DNA from: a virus
IMG/VR virus record: IMGVR_UViG_3300038564_000054
Coordinates: 1 to 22,487 of that record
Reading direction: 5' to 3' (one strand)
DNA length: 22,487 nt
In this document: positions 3,867-17,563 of the stretch, piece after piece
Layout: each line of letters opens with the position of its first letter
Position numbering within the stretch: position 1 is the first letter of the stretch
Position numbers and translations under genes: made by a program
Notes under the pieces: generated by a model
What the model was told of the DNA's origin: nothing
Database searches by the model: none
Seen by the model: the letters and a program-made list of their open reading frames with translations, nothing else

Positions 3867-4191
3867 CAATAACCTCAATCGTTACTTTCTGCGGGCTTCC
3901 GTCTTTTTGTTGTTCCTGGTCGCTCTCACGCCAACCGCCGCGAGTTTTTAATAAAAACATCATTGCAGAAGTATTTCCACCCATACATTGCTCGTATAAC
4001 TTACCAGCAACAGAAGTAATTACCTTTGCCGTGGCATGGTCTAACTCTTTTCGGTAATACTTTCGCAAAGTTTTTGGGTCAATATCAATAATATCTGCAA
4101 TGACTTCCTGGCGAATCCCAGCCATTGACATACTGGATACTTGTTTGCGTGTGCTTGCTGTTGGTTCGTGTGTAGGTGATGACTTAGCCAT
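3847..4191 (-). CDS. terS: Terminase small subunit
   Basis: This 114-residue protein has a helix-turn-helix near residues 22-45 (MAGIRQEVIADIIDIDPKT). A helical oligomerisation region with GNTSAMMFLLKTRGGWRE follows. That second motif is characteristic of one group of small terminase subunits. The protein would recognise the packaging site and regulate TerL. Its start overlaps the end of the ParB-methyltransferase gene by eight bases and its end overlaps TerL by 20 bases. The basic N-terminus (MAKSSPTHEPTASTRKQ) is probably disordered. The context (directly upstream of TerL) is as expected for the family. Confidence 0.88.
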   Translation of the reverse strand: MAKSSPTHEPTASTRKQVSSMSMAGIRQEVIADIIDIDPKTLRKYYRKELDHATAKVITSVAGKLYEQCMGGNTSAMMFLLKTRGGWRESDQEQQKDGSPQKVTIEVIGANTSN

Positions 4192-5497
4192 TTACCACCT
4201 CTTGAATATGGTGAGATTCCACAGGTTCGGAAATATCAGCTTGCGCCCCCTGCTTCAACTCATTGTATGATTGTTTCGTTGATTCTAACACAGCTTCTTT
4301 GCCAGTGTAATCTTGCCAGCGGTTAATTATAACATCAACATACTTTTCATCTAGTTCTGACATAAAACACGATTTTCCAGCTTTTTCACATGATAGCAAT
4401 GTACTGCCAGAACCACCGTACAAGTCCACAACGTTCACCTTGTCTTTTAAGCTATAATAATCGAAAAACCAATCTATTATCGCTACTGGCTTTTGTGTTG
4501 GATGCGCTCTCTTCTTGTCGTGCTCTTTTTCCATACCAAAGATTCCTGCCCATTTAACCCTGGCTAACATTCTTTTATGCTTTGCCTTACTCCAGCATAG
4601 TTCAAAAGTTGAGCCAAACATTTTATCGGCCGATTCATCCCCTCTCTTATCCCACACAACCCAAGAACCATTATTCTTGTCTGGCAAATGCTCTGCATAA
4701 TAATCAGCTCCCCATAAAAAAACTTCCTTACAATAACTAAAGTTTGCGAATACCGTGTTAATCAAACTTGGGTCGAAATCTGAATGGTCGCCGATTACAT
4801 TTTCGTAGCTATTGCCGCCACTACTGCCTTTAAATTTACTATCCATGCTGGAATAATCGGCGTCTAAAAACATACCATACGGTGGATCAGTAAAAACCAT
4901 GTCAGCCTTATTACCATTCATAAGCTTTTCAACATCATCAACACTTGTACTATCCCCACACATTAAACGGTGATTGCCTAAAATCCAAACATCGCCAAGC
5001 TTACTAATCGGTTCTTCTGGTAGTTCTGGCACTTCATCTTCATCAGTCAAACCATCAACTTCTTCGATAGGCATTAATTCTTCAATCTCACCAATGTCAA
5101 AACCAGTAAGTTCAATATTAAAACCTAATTCTTCTAATTCTTGGAATTCAACGGCAAGCATTTCATCATCCCAACCAGAATTTAAAGCCAATTTATTATC
5201 AGCTATAACGTATGCTTTCTTCTGTGCTTCTGTCCAACCTTTAGCAACCATGCAAGGAACTTTTTCATAGCCTGCTTTTTTAGCCGCCATCAATCGACCA
5301 TGACCTGCAATGATTTGATTATTTTCATCAAGCAATAAAGGATTTGTAAACCCCCACTCATTTAACGAAGCAACAATTTGATTAACTTGCTCATCGCTAT
5401 GTGTTCTTGAGTTTCTAGCGTATGGGATTAAGTCACCAACAGGGATATGTTCAATATCTGTATGGTCAACGCCTTTTATAATCGGGAAATCATTCAT
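4184..5497 (-). CDS. ParB-like domain fused to DNA methyltransferase
   Basis: This 437-residue protein has two domains. Residues 15-105 form a ParB/Srx-like domain with the box NQIIAGHGRLMAAKKAG at 60-76. Residues 165-400 form an N6-adenine or N4-cytosine methyltransferase of the beta class: DPPY at 204-207, HPTQKP at 332-337 and the AdoMet motif DLYGGSGST at 358-366. An acidic linker (DGLTDEDEVPELPEEP) joins them. Similar fusions are common in phages next to terminase genes. The enzyme probably modifies phage DNA against host restriction, and the ParB-like domain may aid DNA binding. The recognition sequence cannot be deduced. All core motifs look intact. It lies one base after a small gene of the same operon. 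Confidence 0.9.
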   Translation of the reverse strand: MNDFPIIKGVDHTDIEHIPVGDLIPYARNSRTHSDEQVNQIVASLNEWGFTNPLLLDENNQIIAGHGRLMAAKKAGYEKVPCMVAKGWTEAQKKAYVIADNKLALNSGWDDEMLAVEFQELEELGFNIELTGFDIGEIEELMPIEEVDGLTDEDEVPELPEEPISKLGDVWILGNHRLMCGDSTSVDDVEKLMNGNKADMVFTDPPYGMFLDADYSSMDSKFKGSSGGNSYENVIGDHSDFDPSLINTVFANFSYCKEVFLWGADYYAEHLPDKNNGSWVVWDKRGDESADKMFGSTFELCWSKAKHKRMLARVKWAGIFGMEKEHDKKRAHPTQKPVAIIDWFFDYYSLKDKVNVVDLYGGSGSTLLSCEKAGKSCFMSELDEKYVDVIINRWQDYTGKEAVLESTKQSYNELKQGAQADISEPVESHHIQEVVNG

Positions 5498-5735: not shown

Positions 5736-5763
5736 TTTTGCTCCTTTTTCTTTTTATTGCTAA

Positions 5764-5791
5764 ATTATACCACTTTTAAACACCAGGCCAA
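5764..5791 (-). promoter_or_regulatory. Candidate sigma70-type promoter for the packaging/fibre/portal operon
   Basis: Reading the minus strand, TTGGCC (5786-5791) is followed by a 16-base spacer and TATAAT (5764-5769). A TG dinucleotide one base before the -10 box (TGGTATAAT) makes it an extended -10 promoter. The first gene starts about 30 bases downstream. The element lies after the terminator at 6126-6148, as expected for a new transcription unit. Confidence 0.65.
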
Positions 5792-5834
5792 GTAAATTAA
5801 TCTAACTTTTTGATTTTAAAAGGCTTAATCATTT

Positions 5835-6119
5835 GCGGTAACAATAAAACAGGTTTTGTTACCCCTTGTTACCTCTTTTGTTACCTCTGCAACCATTGGT
5901 TTTAAAGGCTTGTAGTAGTAGTAGTAACAAAAGTAACAATATTTATATATATATATAGAGAGATATATTAATCTCTATATGCCTTTATTACTATCTATAT
6001 ATCTATTTTTGCGGAAAAGTGTTACTTTTGTTACCTTTGCACATAAGTTGTTGATTTTAAAGGTATTTAGCGGTAACAACACTTGTTACTACTACGTTAC
6101 TGCGGTAACAAACCGTTAC
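5835..6119. other. Candidate replication origin: GTTAC/GTAAC iteron-like array
   Basis: The interval between the primase-helicase and the packaging operon has no gene across about 420 bases. It holds 13 GTTAC or GTAAC pentamers: GTAAC at 5838, 5924, 5933, 6073 and 6105; GTTAC at 5858, 5868, 5880, 6021, 6030, 6085, 6096 and 6115. Longer copies recur: GCGGTAACAA at 5835, 6070 and 6102, and TTTTGTTACC at 5854, 5876 and 6026. The two groups flank an AT-only tract with a hairpin (5953-5980). Clustered short repeats beside an AT-rich tract and next to a replication gene is the classic arrangement of an iteron origin. Function is inferred; an operator array for a phage regulator is the main alternative. 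Confidence 0.6.
5953..5980. repeat. AT-rich inverted repeat in the centre of the candidate origin
   Basis: The arms ATATAGAGA (5953-5961) and TCTCTATAT (5972-5980) are perfect 9-bp complements around a 10-base AT loop. The surrounding 5938-6010 is almost only A and T. There is no T-run suited to a terminator on either strand, so unwinding at an origin is a better explanation than transcription termination. Confidence 0.75.
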
Positions 6120-6125
6120 TCCAAT

Positions 6126-6148
6126 AAAAAACCCCACATTAGCGGGGC
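6126..6148 (-). terminator. Rho-independent terminator after the replication operon
   Basis: On the minus strand the stem CCCCGC/GTGGGG closes a TAAT loop and is followed by six T. It lies seven bases after the primase-helicase stop codon. It would end the early/replication transcript before the candidate origin. Confidence 0.88.
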
Positions 6149-6154
6149 AATTAT

Positions 6155-8758
6155 TTAGCCTATAACGGAATCAATCGGAATCTTAATACATCTGGATTTT
6201 GTGCCGTTAAAACTTACTAACCCAGCTTTTAATGCTCCATCTAATCGGATCAAAACTCTAGCCCAACCAGAACCCCAAGCCGTATCATTTAAAATACGTT
6301 TTAATTCGCTGTGATTGTTCGCAACGTAAATATAACCATCTTCAATAATAATCCCATAACGTCTGAGAATTTGCCCAGCGTCCATATTATGCAATTTATT
6401 ATCCCCTGAACTACCTGCCGCAATTTGCACAAACTCGGATATAGAACGATTGTAATTGAACCCGTCTACTTCTGCCCTTATTTGGTGTTGCATAATCGTG
6501 TGAATTAATCGCTCTTCATCACGCACATCTTCAGATTCTTGCGCTTCGGTAAAGTCAATTTTCTTAACGTATTCTCTGGCGTTCTCTAGGCTTATTTCTT
6601 CGTCTGATACATAAGCAAGCGCCCCAGATAATAAAGCGCCGTATTGATCGCCCATTCGTTGCGAGCCAAGATATTCAGCAATGGCACGTCCAATTACTTT
6701 AGCGTTGTGTCTTATCACCGGAATCATTTTGTAAGCCCTAGCGCGTAAAGAAGCTGTTAGTTTATCGGTTAAAAGGTTGTTGACGTGTTTTTCAAACTTA
6801 TGAAACTTATCAACTTCTGATTTAGATTTATCATGCTTTTTTAAGCTTAATACGCTTATGCGTGATTCGTCACTTGCCTGGTTGATTGCCACGTTAATCG
6901 AGCCAAACATAAACATGGAGCGAATAAAGAAAACCATCGCATCACCGCCCGCCGTTCCTTTAGTAATACCGCTTGATGAATTACTTGAAGCTTGTCTGGC
7001 CAACTCGATAACGGATTGCATTCTTCTGCGTCCTTGTTGGTCTTCAGATTCTGACTCATCAAATATAACCGCTCGCCCATCTTGTTTAAGCGTTTGGCGT
7101 ATTCCGGCTTCTGTTGTAGAGCCTTGAGTTCTAAATGCACCTTCGCCAACTATTCGGTCAACGATAAACTCTTGAATCCAACTTTTACCTGTACCCCTTG
7201 AGCCTGTGAGCCAAATATGTGGCCGCCAATCAAGTGCCGAGCAAATAGGTGCGAGAAAACACCAACCCGCCAGTAAATGCCCACTTATTGACTTATCAAA
7301 ATTCAACTCTCTAAATACATCAAATACCTGCCCAGCTTGCTCAACGGTTGCCGGAACTGTATCAATATTAGACTCTATTGCAGGCGCTAGTTCATAAATA
7401 AAACGCGTGTTAAAATCATGAATCTTAGTTATTTCACCGTCAACAATAAGGTTAGAACCAATATGTAAAACAGAACGGTTTAAATCGAACCATGCACCAC
7501 GCCCTCTAATCCTAGCCGGGTCAAATAATCCAACTCGCTCCTGGTGTCTGAATAGATAATCGGTTGCGAAAGTCCAATCTTCTTTTTCACCTTGAAAAAA
7601 CACCGACTTCCACCAGTCAAGAGAAGCAATCGAAAGCAAGTGTGTTTTAGAACCCATCGAGCCACGACTAATAGAAATAATCTTATTGGTTTTGGTTGGT
7701 AAGAAATAAAACTCATCACCAGAAAAACCTAAGCATCTAAACTGTGGATCATGTAAGTTGCTTTGTGCTGTCGTTTCCTTTTCCTGCTTAACTTGTATCG
7801 GTTCATTAATTTCAAACGTGTCATATTCATGCGTTTCAGTTGGTTCTTCTGTTTTATTATGAGTAAGCTTGGCAAGATATAAATTAACCGCTTCTTCACC
7901 TTCTAAGGCGTATAAATCATTAAAATCAGTAGGCTTTGTTTCCAGGTTTGTAAACTGTGGCAATCTATACTCGCAACCAGTCAACTCCGCCGCTCTGGAA
8001 GCATAATATAAACCAGGATTCTCAACCTTACCTTTAACCGTGTTGACACTACTCCAACGATCGTTATCAGCCGCAATAATAATACGCTTGTCAGGGTATG
8101 ACTTTTTAAGATGTGAAGCAACCTCCAAAAGATTACCCGTTGAAAAAGCCACCGCAACCGCTTTGCCCGTTACAGCGTGAATGGTTGCGCCTGTCGCATA
8201 TCCCTCAGCAATATAAATAACATCGTCAGGCGTACCAATCGAACAATATACTTGCTTAGTGGTTGAGCCTTTAACGTATCTTTTAAAGTTATTCGCATAA
8301 ATAATCTGCATCCCAACAACTTTGCGCTCTCTGCTATACATTGGAATCAATATTAAATGGCGCTTATGTGATCTAAACTCTTTTAAGCCCGTGTTTGCTA
8401 TTTGCTTTTTATTTAGATATGGGTGTATTGTGCAATGATTTGCTTTTGCGTAAAACCTGGCGATTCGTTGCCCGCTTCTTTGTTTACGCTGTAATTCACG
8501 TTGTTTAGCATACTCCCTACGCTCTTCTATTTGCTTTCGTTCCGCTGGCGATAATTGTGTGCCGCCATCAGCTTTCCAAATATTGCGAATGTCTGGTTCT
8601 GTCCAATCACCATAAACAACCGTTTGCGGGTTATCGTAGGCAATATACCAACCATTTTTTTTATTACGCTTTGTCTTAAACCTGTGAATGCGTCCATCAA
8701 ATACCACGTTTGGGGGTGATTCGATTCCGCTTGCTTGCATGTGTTGTTGATAGTTCAT
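6155..8758 (-). CDS. Toprim primase-helicase fusion (replication initiation)
   Basis: This 867-residue protein carries a primase-like N-terminal half. A beta region (residues 18-52, VVFDGRIHRFKTK) resembles plasmid TraC-type primases. The Toprim domain lies around 178-285, with E185 (YIAEGYATG) and D231/D233 (IAADNDR). The C-terminal half is a DUF927-like ATPase: Walker A GSRGTGKS at 519-526 and Walker B VIFDESES with D567 and E568. I see no CHC2-type zinc finger at the N-terminus, so primer-site recognition may differ from DnaG. Residues 300-340 look like a flexible linker. It overlaps the VRR-NUC gene start/stop by four bases and lies beside the candidate origin, which fits a replisome role. 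Confidence 0.85.
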   Translation of the reverse strand: MNYQQHMQASGIESPPNVVFDGRIHRFKTKRNKKNGWYIAYDNPQTVVYGDWTEPDIRNIWKADGGTQLSPAERKQIEERREYAKQRELQRKQRSGQRIARFYAKANHCTIHPYLNKKQIANTGLKEFRSHKRHLILIPMYSRERKVVGMQIIYANNFKRYVKGSTTKQVYCSIGTPDDVIYIAEGYATGATIHAVTGKAVAVAFSTGNLLEVASHLKKSYPDKRIIIAADNDRWSSVNTVKGKVENPGLYYASRAAELTGCEYRLPQFTNLETKPTDFNDLYALEGEEAVNLYLAKLTHNKTEEPTETHEYDTFEINEPIQVKQEKETTAQSNLHDPQFRCLGFSGDEFYFLPTKTNKIISISRGSMGSKTHLLSIASLDWWKSVFFQGEKEDWTFATDYLFRHQERVGLFDPARIRGRGAWFDLNRSVLHIGSNLIVDGEITKIHDFNTRFIYELAPAIESNIDTVPATVEQAGQVFDVFRELNFDKSISGHLLAGWCFLAPICSALDWRPHIWLTGSRGTGKSWIQEFIVDRIVGEGAFRTQGSTTEAGIRQTLKQDGRAVIFDESESEDQQGRRRMQSVIELARQASSNSSSGITKGTAGGDAMVFFIRSMFMFGSINVAINQASDESRISVLSLKKHDKSKSEVDKFHKFEKHVNNLLTDKLTASLRARAYKMIPVIRHNAKVIGRAIAEYLGSQRMGDQYGALLSGALAYVSDEEISLENAREYVKKIDFTEAQESEDVRDEERLIHTIMQHQIRAEVDGFNYNRSISEFVQIAAGSSGDNKLHNMDAGQILRRYGIIIEDGYIYVANNHSELKRILNDTAWGSGWARVLIRLDGALKAGLVSFNGTKSRCIKIPIDSVIG

Positions 8759-11431: not shown

Positions 11432-11644
11432 TTAATCTTTAAACGCCATTCTAAAATCCATGCATCTATCTAGCTCACGCTTAATGACGTTATAACTATC
11501 GAACTTAGCCATAATTTCAAAAGCGGCTCTCTGTGCTTTTTGTGGTAAATGTAGAAAACGGCAATCGCCACCATCCACCTTGTCAAATTCTGCTAGTTCT
11601 TCTTTTTTCTTTTTGTCTAAGTCAATTAAATTTAGGTTAATCAT
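11432..11644 (-). CDS. Small hypothetical protein coupled to the methyltransferase
   Basis: This 70-residue protein starts at the ATG at 11642-11644 and overlaps the methyltransferase stop as ATGA, so its translation probably depends on that gene. It is charged and mainly helical: a Lys-rich start (LIDLDKKKKEELAEFDKV) and a long helix (QKAQRAAFEIMAKFDSYN). Two cysteines are present but not in a metal-binding arrangement. I see no known domain. A helper role for the methyltransferase is possible only from coupling. Confidence 0.6.
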   Translation of the reverse strand: MINLNLIDLDKKKKEELAEFDKVDGGDCRFLHLPQKAQRAAFEIMAKFDSYNVIKRELDRCMDFRMAFKD

Positions 11645-12258
11645 GCTGTACCTCCAAACATATCAATTTGCGCAGTATCTTTTTTAAAACGCTTACAAGC
11701 TAAATCGTAGTAATGCTTATCTATTTCCATTCCTACAAAATCATAGCCTGCGTAATGCGCGGCAATCGCGCTTGATGCTGAGCCAAGATGTGTGTCTAGG
11801 ATTTTGTCACCAGGTTTAGCGTATTTGTCTAGTAACCACTGATAGAGCTTTACTGGTTTTTGGGTTGGGTGAAAACGGTCAAGTTGATTAGGGCTTAATT
11901 TAAATATTCTCGTCCCACCTTTGCTAATCCATGCATACTCGCACTCAGCAAAATCACGTCCGTACATTGTCTCGCCTTTATCCCATATCGCAAAATATTG
12001 ACTCTGCGGAAGTTCAAAATAATTGCCGCCCCAAATAACCTGGTTCTTAGAAACACGGAAAAGCTCTCTAAAATAAATATCTTCAGGAATGCTTTTATCC
12101 CAGTCTTTTTTTGTTGGTTGCACTGTCTTTCTGCCACCCATATTCATGCTATTAACATCTATCCCATAAGGCGGGTCAACAATAGCCAAATCAAAAGCGT
12201 TATCAGGTAGGTCTTTCATGTAATCCATGCAATCAATATTTAGCAATTCAATACTCAT
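11641..12258 (-). CDS. DNA methyltransferase (N6-adenine or N4-cytosine, beta class)
   Basis: This 205-residue protein is a compact methyltransferase. DPPY is at 28-31 and precedes the AdoMet-binding motif DTHLGSAS (155-162), the order of the beta class; HPTQKP is at 130-135 and GMEID follows at 176-180. DTHLGSAS replaces the more common D-x-F-x-G-S-G form and is frequent in phage members of this family. The target-recognition region between 35 and 125 is short. It would methylate phage DNA, probably against restriction. It is the second DNA methyltransferase in the window. It starts as ATGA over the stop of a 46-aa gene. Confidence 0.92.
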   Translation of the reverse strand: MSIELLNIDCMDYMKDLPDNAFDLAIVDPPYGIDVNSMNMGGRKTVQPTKKDWDKSIPEDIYFRELFRVSKNQVIWGGNYFELPQSQYFAIWDKGETMYGRDFAECEYAWISKGGTRIFKLSPNQLDRFHPTQKPVKLYQWLLDKYAKPGDKILDTHLGSASSAIAAHYAGYDFVGMEIDKHYYDLACKRFKKDTAQIDMFGGTA

Positions 12259-12404: not shown

Positions 12405-13190
12405 TTACTTACAAAAACACCCGATAGGCTGTTCATCTTCAAACATTGATAATTGCTCACTGCTCATTCTTGATATTGATTTCACTTCAATAGCAACTTT
12501 ATCTAATCCATCTGCTTTAAATCCATTGACTGCATTAAGCTGTTTATATTTTTTATCCATGCTTTCTAGCTCTTGCCATAAATCAGGGTAATGCTCATGC
12601 AGTTTTGCCAATGACTTTGTGCCTTGTTTCGGGCATAACCAACAACCAGTGCGGTTAAAGTGGTTGTACAGTGGATTAAATAATCCTCGCTCTTTAAGTT
12701 CTTCGCCTGCCATGTCTTCTGTTACCTGCCAAGTAACCATTGGGTAAATCTTATTTTTCCAATCAACAGGAATTCGTTTAGGCTCGTCAAAAGCAATACC
12801 TATGTAATAGAAGACATCACAATCTTTATAATGTTGTTTTATGTAGTTCTGTACTGGATTTACTTTTAATTCCCTTGTACACCAGCTCATGCCTAATTCA
12901 GCAGGAAAGCCTCTAACACGGCCTTCGTAATTTCCTTTTGTAATTTCTCCATCAGCCCATTTATCCCAAATATCACGGCCTTTACCCCAGTTAATAAGCG
13001 TTATTTTTAAGTCAGGGTATTTTGATTCCCAATAAGTTTTGCATTTTTCAATGTAGTCGTACATTTCGGGAAACTCAAAGCCAGTATCACAAAAGATAAC
13101 CTCGTCTAATGGATCGCCACGTTTTAACAATTCATCAACTAAATACGTTGAATCTTTACCGCCAGACCATTTAGCTATATATTTTTTCAT
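12405..13190 (-). CDS. PAPS-reductase-family PP-loop enzyme
   Basis: This 261-residue protein has the PP-loop SGGKDS at 9-14, which binds ATP or an adenylyl group, and FCDTGFEFPE at 33-42. WCTRELK places C104, and TGCWLCPKQG places C183 and C186; these three may hold an iron-sulfur cluster, as in related sulfur-transfer enzymes. GIAFDEPKRI (131-140) matches a further conserved element. The C-terminus ends with C258 and C260. It belongs to the phosphoadenosine phosphosulfate reductase superfamily, which includes CysH and the DNA phosphorothioation protein DndC. Its role in phages is not settled: sulfur assimilation, nucleotide or DNA modification are all proposed. It overlaps the upstream gene as ATGA. 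Confidence 0.85.
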   Translation of the reverse strand: MKKYIAKWSGGKDSTYLVDELLKRGDPLDEVIFCDTGFEFPEMYDYIEKCKTYWESKYPDLKITLINWGKGRDIWDKWADGEITKGNYEGRVRGFPAELGMSWCTRELKVNPVQNYIKQHYKDCDVFYYIGIAFDEPKRIPVDWKNKIYPMVTWQVTEDMAGEELKERGLFNPLYNHFNRTGCWLCPKQGTKSLAKLHEHYPDLWQELESMDKKYKQLNAVNGFKADGLDKVAIEVKSISRMSSEQLSMFEDEQPIGCFCK

Positions 13191-13693
13191 GCCATCGCCC
13201 TCAATTTATCAAGTGCTTTTGGATTTGTGCCTACTATGTGCATAGAAAAATATCTATTTTCTTCTAGTTCTTGAAGCTCATACTTGTTCAGCGGTCTATC
13301 TGCTTTAATGGTTGATGCAGTCGTTTCTTCTACGGGCTTAGTTTTTTTTCTGATTCCGTTCTTCTGTACAAATCTATCTATAGTTCTTTTGGTTGTGCCA
13401 AAATGCTCAGATACTTTTTGAGCTGAAAGGTTTTTAGTAACATACAGTTCTGTTACCTTTTCTTTTGTTTTTATTAACTCGCCATTTATCCACCAGCTTG
13501 TTTCTTCCGCACCTCTTTTTTTGTATTCGCCTTTTCTGAAATTACGGTTAAAATAACTAACAGAGCCTTTATTAATACCTAGAATTTCTGCAATCTCTAT
13601 CTGCATTAAGCCTTGTTTTTCAAGCTTGGCTATCTTTTTTTGAGCTTGCTTTAATGTCATGCCTGCTTTTTTAATCCAGTTCGGTTCTCTCAT
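13187..13693 (-). CDS. DNA-binding protein with two helix-turn-helix motifs
   Basis: I take the ATG at 13691-13693 (168 residues), which overlaps the preceding stop as ATGA and has GGGGGA just upstream. A TTG four codons earlier is less likely. The first HTH lies near 28-50 (GLMQIEIAEILGINKGSVS). The second lies near 86-112 (KNLSAQKVSEHFGTTKRTI). A basic segment (KKKRG-like, 58-61) and a charged C-terminus follow. Two HTH units in series are seen in homing-type or regulatory phage proteins that recognise extended sites. It could be a transcription regulator or a DNA-targeting factor. I see no nuclease motif. Confidence 0.8.
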   Translation of the reverse strand: MREPNWIKKAGMTLKQAQKKIAKLEKQGLMQIEIAEILGINKGSVSYFNRNFRKGEYKKRGAEETSWWINGELIKTKEKVTELYVTKNLSAQKVSEHFGTTKRTIDRFVQKNGIRKKTKPVEETTASTIKADRPLNKYELQELEENRYFSMHIVGTNPKALDKLRAMA

Positions 13694-13872
13694 AAATTCC
13701 CCCAAAGTTTTTCAAATTCCTTAACGTGTTGTATGTCTTCAATACGTCTTCGGATTTTGTTTCTTTGCTTGGCTTTCTTACTGACTTTTGATGGTTGATA
13801 TTCTGGTTTAGAATTTGCATAAACAATGGAAGGCCTGCCTTGTTTGTTTAGCGGATTTTCTTTATTTATCAT
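13690..13872 (-). CDS. Small basic hypothetical protein
   Basis: This 60-residue protein is strongly basic (SKVSKKAKQRNKIRRRIED) and probably disordered in its first half, with a short helix at the end. It starts at the ATG at 13870-13872, overlapping the MazG-like stop as TAATG, with AAGGATGA upstream. The charge suggests nucleic-acid contact. It overlaps the double-HTH gene by four bases, so both may act together. No family is recognised. Confidence 0.65.
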   Translation of the reverse strand: MINKENPLNKQGRPSIVYANSKPEYQPSKVSKKAKQRNKIRRRIEDIQHVKEFEKLWGNL

Positions 13873-17314: not shown

Positions 17315-17563
17315 TTAGTTATCTGGAACTGTGCCGCTAACAGGTAAATGCTGTGGGATATTAATATCTTTTAGATAGTGTTCTGACTTGCCAAGCTCTT
17401 CTGCTCTATACCTTAGCTTGAGCAATGTTTTTTCCAGGCTTGATATGTGAATACCTAAAGCTATGGCGGCTTTTTGCTGTGATAGGTGGTCAATGCAAGC
17501 TTGCACTTTGTTGCGTTTGTTTTATGTGGTGCAAATTTCCAATAAAAAATTGTAATCAATCAT
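17315..17563 (-). pseudogene. Small HTH regulator gene interrupted by an in-frame TAA
   Basis: The ATG at 17561-17563 has an excellent ribosome site (AGGAGTAAAAGAAA), but the frame stops after 13 codons at a TAA (17522-17524). The same frame continues at once and stays open for 69 codons to 17315. It encodes QQKAAIALGIHISSLEKTLL, a helix-turn-helix of a common type, then a charged tail. The only plausible restart is a GTG at 17504-17506 (63 residues) without a clear ribosome site. The simplest reading is a full-length HTH gene of about 82 codons with a nonsense mutation. Alternatives are a 13-residue leader peptide followed by reinitiation, or a sequencing error. It lies between the lysis terminator and promoter P1. 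Confidence 0.6.

Follow-up and report, generated by a model that had tools for sequence, protein, structure and literature searches.

Why short GTTAC/GTAAC repeats should crowd into a gene-free interval just past the end of a Toprim primase-helicase gene is the question raised by a 22.5-kb viral fragment record (IMG/VR IMGVR_UViG_3300038564_000054, 22,487 nucleotides, hereafter the window). An earlier note, made from the letters of this DNA, had proposed that the array is a phage replication origin and that a phage protein, perhaps the primase-helicase itself, binds the repeats. Comparison with related loci strengthens both proposals, the second through co-variation of the repeats with one domain of the protein, and the origin proposal came through both of the examined ways in which it might have failed: arrays occur at the corresponding position in relatives that share the primase, and the repeats are not equally dense elsewhere. 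With a probability of about 0.88, the sequence evidence indicates that the array is a replication origin and that P0001, the primase-helicase encoded next to it, binds it through its C-terminal domain.

The array occupies positions 5838–6119, outside the primase-helicase gene, starting 36 nt past its stop codon (Table 1). It holds 13 of the 45 GTTAC/GTAAC pentamers in the whole window, which bears out the count of 13 in about 285 bp made previously. Across 300 shuffles of the window that preserved its dinucleotides, the densest 285 bp contained at most 6 (mean 3.3), and all other pentamers in the real window reach 7 or fewer per 285 bp. The octamer GGTAACAA occurs seven times in the window, always inside the array (0.99 expected), the longer units GCGGTAACAA and TTTTGTTACC are each present three times, as had been reported, and GTAACAA is 782-fold denser here than in the remaining window. 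The interval 5736–6154 contains no open reading frame of 60 or more amino acids, in agreement with the description of the array as lacking a gene, and an Rfam search of the window returned no match.

Two iteron sets flank an AT-rich core directly 3' of the Toprim primase-helicase gene. The inner pairs, at 5924/5933 and 6021/6030 when read as GTAACA, are spaced 9 bp apart within each pair and are mirror-symmetric, both facing the core; these pairs, the two IHF-consensus sites, and the intrinsic terminator were absent from the earlier note. The core had been called AT-only, which proved too strong: positions 5939–6010 are 85% A+T, and the longest AT-only run is 19 nt. A hairpin with a 9-bp stem, also reported there, does exist (5953–5961/5972–5980), but its folding is no better than that of shuffled sequences (z −0.53; 62 of 200 shuffles equal or better), and it was rejected as a candidate element. 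The main genes of the window all lie on one strand, so that GC skew within the window is uninformative. Cumulative skew of complete genomes, which had been suggested as a check, gave minima that match the array in two of three complete related phages; phi1422 did not fit.

Table 1. Coordinates of the features considered at the origin locus, of other candidate readers of the repeats, and of upstream gaps in ~90-kb phages.
Feature	Position	Strand	Basis
Toprim primase-helicase P0001, 867 aa, proposed self-loading replication initiator	6155..8758	minus	Pfam, PHROG
C-terminal winged-helix-like domain, aa 746–867, proposed iteron-binding	6158..6523	minus	AF2; diverges where iterons differ
Long C-terminal beta-hairpin, aa 843–861, proposed specificity wing	6176..6232	minus	secondary structure; L009 substitutions
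Intrinsic terminator between primase-helicase gene and array	6121..6148	minus	7-bp stem, 5 GC pairs, T-tract
Gene-proximal iteron cluster, 7 GTAAC sites	6021..6119	none	pentamer count
IHF-consensus site AATCAACAACTTA	6044..6056	minus	consensus match
AT-rich core, ~85% A+T, proposed DNA-unwinding element	5938..6010	none	composition
Distal iteron cluster, 6 GTAAC sites	5838..5937	none	pentamer count
IHF-consensus site AATCAAAAAGTTA	5803..5815	minus	consensus match
Sigma70-like promoter of next operon, beyond the far end of the array	5764..5791	minus	TTGGCC-16-TATAAT, extended −10
Candidate alternative reader: HTH protein	13187–13705		
Candidate alternative reader: Cro-like protein	17315–17506		
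Candidate alternative reader: ParB-methyltransferase	4184–5497		
Gap of ~90-kb phage L012	2700–2940		
Gap of ~90-kb phage L014	2725–2940		
Gap of ~90-kb phage L015	2745–2920		
Gap of ~90-kb phage L017	2785–2970		
Gap of ~90-kb phage L023	1505–1716		
Gap of ~90-kb phage L026	2700–2892		

P0001 matches Toprim_3 in Pfam (1.9e-8), with a weak DUF5906 hit (E 0.024), and belongs to PHROG 35358 'DNA primase' (2.6e-165). D5_N and Pox_D5 were absent from the protein at E 0.1 in Pfam, and no Pfam model was significant for its helicase part or C-terminus. The AlphaFold2 model of the C-terminal domain (mean pLDDT 95.6) resembles a winged helix, with a long β-hairpin at its end. Foldseek searches of the PDB with two C-terminal models gave nothing below E 0.001; the top fold matches are winged-helix proteins, non-significant and suggestive only, and the best of these weak matches, likewise non-significant, is TcpK, whose structure was solved bound to oriT (transfer-origin) DNA. 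A sequence search of the PDB yielded no useful relative.

Several other genes of the window deserve mention in their own right. The ParB-methyltransferase, a DNA methyltransferase-like protein in which an N6/N4 methylase is joined to an N-terminal ParB domain, is encoded between the putative origin and the terminase genes, and a second DNA methyltransferase-like gene, recognized from sequence alone, lies at 11641–12258. Judged likewise from sequence alone, the product of 12405–13190, which adjoins the double-HTH protein gene, resembles PAPS-reductase/DndC-type enzymes, contains an SGGKDS motif, and possibly functions in DNA modification or counter-defence. The tandem frames 1391–1795 and 1796–2188 have in common a repeated motif, AWVNFNGTGTVAIRDS..NVSSI.DNG, and are apparently paralogous tail-fibre-type modules.

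The association of arrays with this gene was followed through scans of viral contigs, bacterial genomes, and named phages, which used helicase-based patterns and retained the best 80 loci per scan, giving a non-random sample of 323 loci in ~188 clusters at 85%. A first genome scan with P0001 alone found zero loci; an alignment-based scan found 68. A 6-mer present in seven or more copies and exceeding every shuffle by at least two was taken as a significant array, and 87 of the 188 clusters have one. In 62 of these 87 (44 viral contigs, 17 cellular genomes, and one named phage) the array begins between −120 and +150 nt from the stop codon, where the chance fraction is 3.7%, while roughly half of the clusters, most of the ~90-kb phages among them, have no array near the primase-helicase gene. 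Distant phages at 28–38% identity, namely phi1422, S-H1, KLER1-1, and Acjo_20, also have an array beside the gene, that of Acjo_20 being 5' of it. The repeats vary by lineage (GGTAACA, TGTATAC, CGCTGACA, GTCCGCAA, CGTGAGA, and others), and when aligned they conform loosely to GTAACA, with numerous variants. Typically, ~5–7 sites stand on each side of a gap that is usually 75–105 bp long and AT-richer than its locus (p 1.8e-13); a strict two-cluster test was passed by 45 of 72 arrays, and these 72 arrays contain 33 matches to the IHF consensus where 2.0 are expected. Repeat density in the array exceeds that in the rest of the genome by 37- to 488-fold in three complete related phages.

Other arrangements were observed at some of these loci. 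The array of Serratia phage MQ-4 (6965–7365 of L016) lies 1.6 kb from the primase-helicase stop codon with four annotated reading frames between, as though an insertion of genes had pushed initiator and origin apart. In the ~90-kb phages, the primase-helicase start is preceded by a gap of 170–230 nt that has no iteron array and mostly contains a conserved TTAGCTACCGG-like element, which in several of them sits inside a strong outer stem; Rfam had no match to the leader of four such phages. Locus L123 carries 20 copies of GCTGCA in less than 200 bp, ~1176–1352 nt past the primase-helicase stop codon, a run far denser than any iteron array that is probably a coding tandem repeat.

The identity of the protein that reads the repeats is suggested by lineages in which the repeat has changed. 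Three viral contigs, L008, L009, and L010, encode proteins 67% identical to P0001 and each have two repeat clusters around an AT-rich core at the same place as in the window. The repeat is TGTAACA in L008 and L010 and has changed wholesale to TGTATAC at the corresponding positions in L009, whose protein is ~95% identical to the other two. Nine of the 29 substitutions unique to L009 relative to L008 and L010 fall within the last 30 alignment columns (p 1.2e-7), four of them in the β-hairpin and the remaining five among the last five residues. At the DNA level, L009 and L010 are ~90% identical until 100 nt before the stop codon, 54–72% over the gene end and array, and 93–100% beyond +300. A second switch separates L165 and L172, with GCAACA repeats, from L175 and L171, with CGTAAC repeats: their helicase cores are 95–98% identical (98% vs L175), their C-terminal domains only ~37–40%, and DNA homology breaks ~300–400 nt before the stop codon and stays broken through the array.

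Where helicase cores differ by less than 8%, residues 842–867 differ by 3.6% in pairs that share a repeat vs 47.7% in pairs that do not. All 69 pairs with a C-terminal distance below 0.10 share their repeat, and C-terminal distance predicts repeat identity with an AUC of 0.978 vs 0.913 for core distance, both comparisons being made on pairs that are not independent. Column-wise mutual information across distant clusters is dominated by phylogeny, and partial Mantel tests were weak, with only residues 761–800 giving p 0.015. The gene end adjoins the array, and linked recombination could give co-variation without contact. The case for reading by the C-terminal domain consequently rests on a few close-range switches rather than on a global correlation, because the pairs are non-independent, gene end and array are linked, and the broad statistics are weak.

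This linkage gives the strongest of the competing explanations its footing, namely that the array is an origin whose iterons are read by another phage protein, the C-terminal domain co-varying only through physical proximity. The recombination tracts that exchange arrays do span the 3' end of the adjacent gene, and the window encodes further DNA-binding proteins that might serve as readers (Table 1). Such a reader is nevertheless improbable, given that the differences between L009 and L010 concentrate in the C-terminal β-hairpin and tail, that L165 and L175 diverge near the domain boundary instead of between genes, and that arrays track the primase-helicase gene across phages whose other neighbours differ.

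Recognition of repeats by the product of an adjoining initiator gene has precedents in mobile elements. In PICIs, the origin directly follows the 3' end of the initiator gene and is made up of an AT-rich region with an iteron set on either side; this layout is said to be unknown from any other bacterial replicon, and the rep-ori of EcCICFT073 replicates a plasmid (PMC6092414). The window resembles the PICI pri-rep-ori modules (SaPIs, EcCICFT073) in both this 3' placement and the two flanking sets. When EcCICFT073 was checked, 11 copies of GGTAGA, which resemble the GGTAACA of the phage family, were found directly 3' of its D5-type replicase. That replicase has the composition D5_N, DUF5906, and Pox_D5, whereas P0001 is a Toprim primase fused to a helicase without D5_N or Pox_D5, and only a P-loop segment aligns between them. 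Moreover, PICIs are satellites and the source of the window is not, since it encodes a large terminase (Pfam) and has terminase and virion/tail-type reading frames. In SCCmec, the C-terminal domain of Cch2 binds repeats that follow the gene encoding it, and SaPI Rep reportedly uses its C-terminal domain likewise to bind downstream repeats (PMC7581432). The same mode is proposed for P0001, whose C-terminal domain would bind the short repeats just past the end of its gene, although Cch2 and SaPI Rep belong to other helicase families (DUF927, Primase_Cterm), and Cch2 lacks a fused Toprim primase and has an origin of only three 5-nt repeats.

The P4 alpha protein, like P0001, has a Toprim primase domain fused to a helicase, and the Toprim parts of the two are homologous (hhalign 7.5e-18). 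Alpha additionally has a zinc ribbon and the D5_N and Pox_D5 domains, of which the D5 domains are absent from P0001; its helicase and C-terminal parts could not be aligned with P0001 by hmmsearch or hhalign, and the PDB fold search gave no match to an alpha-type origin-binding domain. The P4 repeats (type 1 iterons, GGTGAACA) are split between ori and crr, and crr lies 3' of the alpha gene behind a terminator, as does the array of the window. Phage lambda offers a further likeness, for ori-lambda combines iterons with an AT-rich tract and has IHF nearby. The lambda iterons are part of the initiator gene, whose product O is no helicase, whereas in the window the array stands outside the coding sequence and the helicase itself is the candidate initiator. 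From sequence comparison, the best explanation is that this phage family works like SaPI/PICI Rep-ori and P4 alpha-ori/crr, with a different helicase class and in tailed phages, not satellites. A literature search found no description of this tailed-phage primase-helicase family, which is weak evidence, most subscription papers lying outside its scope.

The P4 arrangement also suggests that the array might instead be an accessory site resembling crr, or a centromere-like partition or incompatibility site as in plasmids, with the true origin elsewhere; P4 has such repeats at both ori and crr, and the window is only a fragment. This is quite unlikely, as no partition ATPase was recognized among the proteins examined, no second array occurs in the window or in the three complete related genomes, and the layout equals that of tested PICI origins. 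That the array is a multi-site operator of the packaging operon is very unlikely indeed: a good sigma70-like promoter does lie just downstream, but outside the array, at 16 of 61 related loci the first reading frame past the array is convergent, the repeat changes along with the primase-helicase, and an AT-rich core between two clusters, accompanied by IHF-type sites, has the anatomy of an origin.

For an origin read by its own primase-helicase, the observed features, namely the array, its place beside the gene in dozens of lineages, the two clusters around an AT-richer gap, the enrichment of IHF consensus sites, and the co-variation of repeat and C-terminal domain, lead us to infer the following mechanism. 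Several copies of the primase-helicase would attach, through the winged-helix-like domain, to the iterons left and right of the core, while host IHF or an IHF-like protein would occupy the flanking sites and bend the DNA. The AT-rich core would then melt, allowing two helicase rings to load and depart in opposite directions, and the Toprim domain would prime synthesis for the host polymerase.

Most phage replication origins are unknown; in dozens of these lineages the putative origin can be located from sequence, since it adjoins the stop codon of a single gene. The data extend the PICI-type layout to tailed phages whose helicase belongs to an unrelated class, and the natural variants, including near-identical proteins with different repeats, form a panel for studying how winged-helix initiators read DNA and how replicon specificity changes. 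More broadly, there is perhaps an even chance that tailed phages contain a large undescribed family of self-loading Toprim primase-helicase replicons, in which exchange or re-tuning affects the C-terminal DNA-binding domain together with the iteron origin, as one cassette, giving many repeat specificities that may bar co-infecting phages or origin-borrowing satellites from each other's replication machinery.
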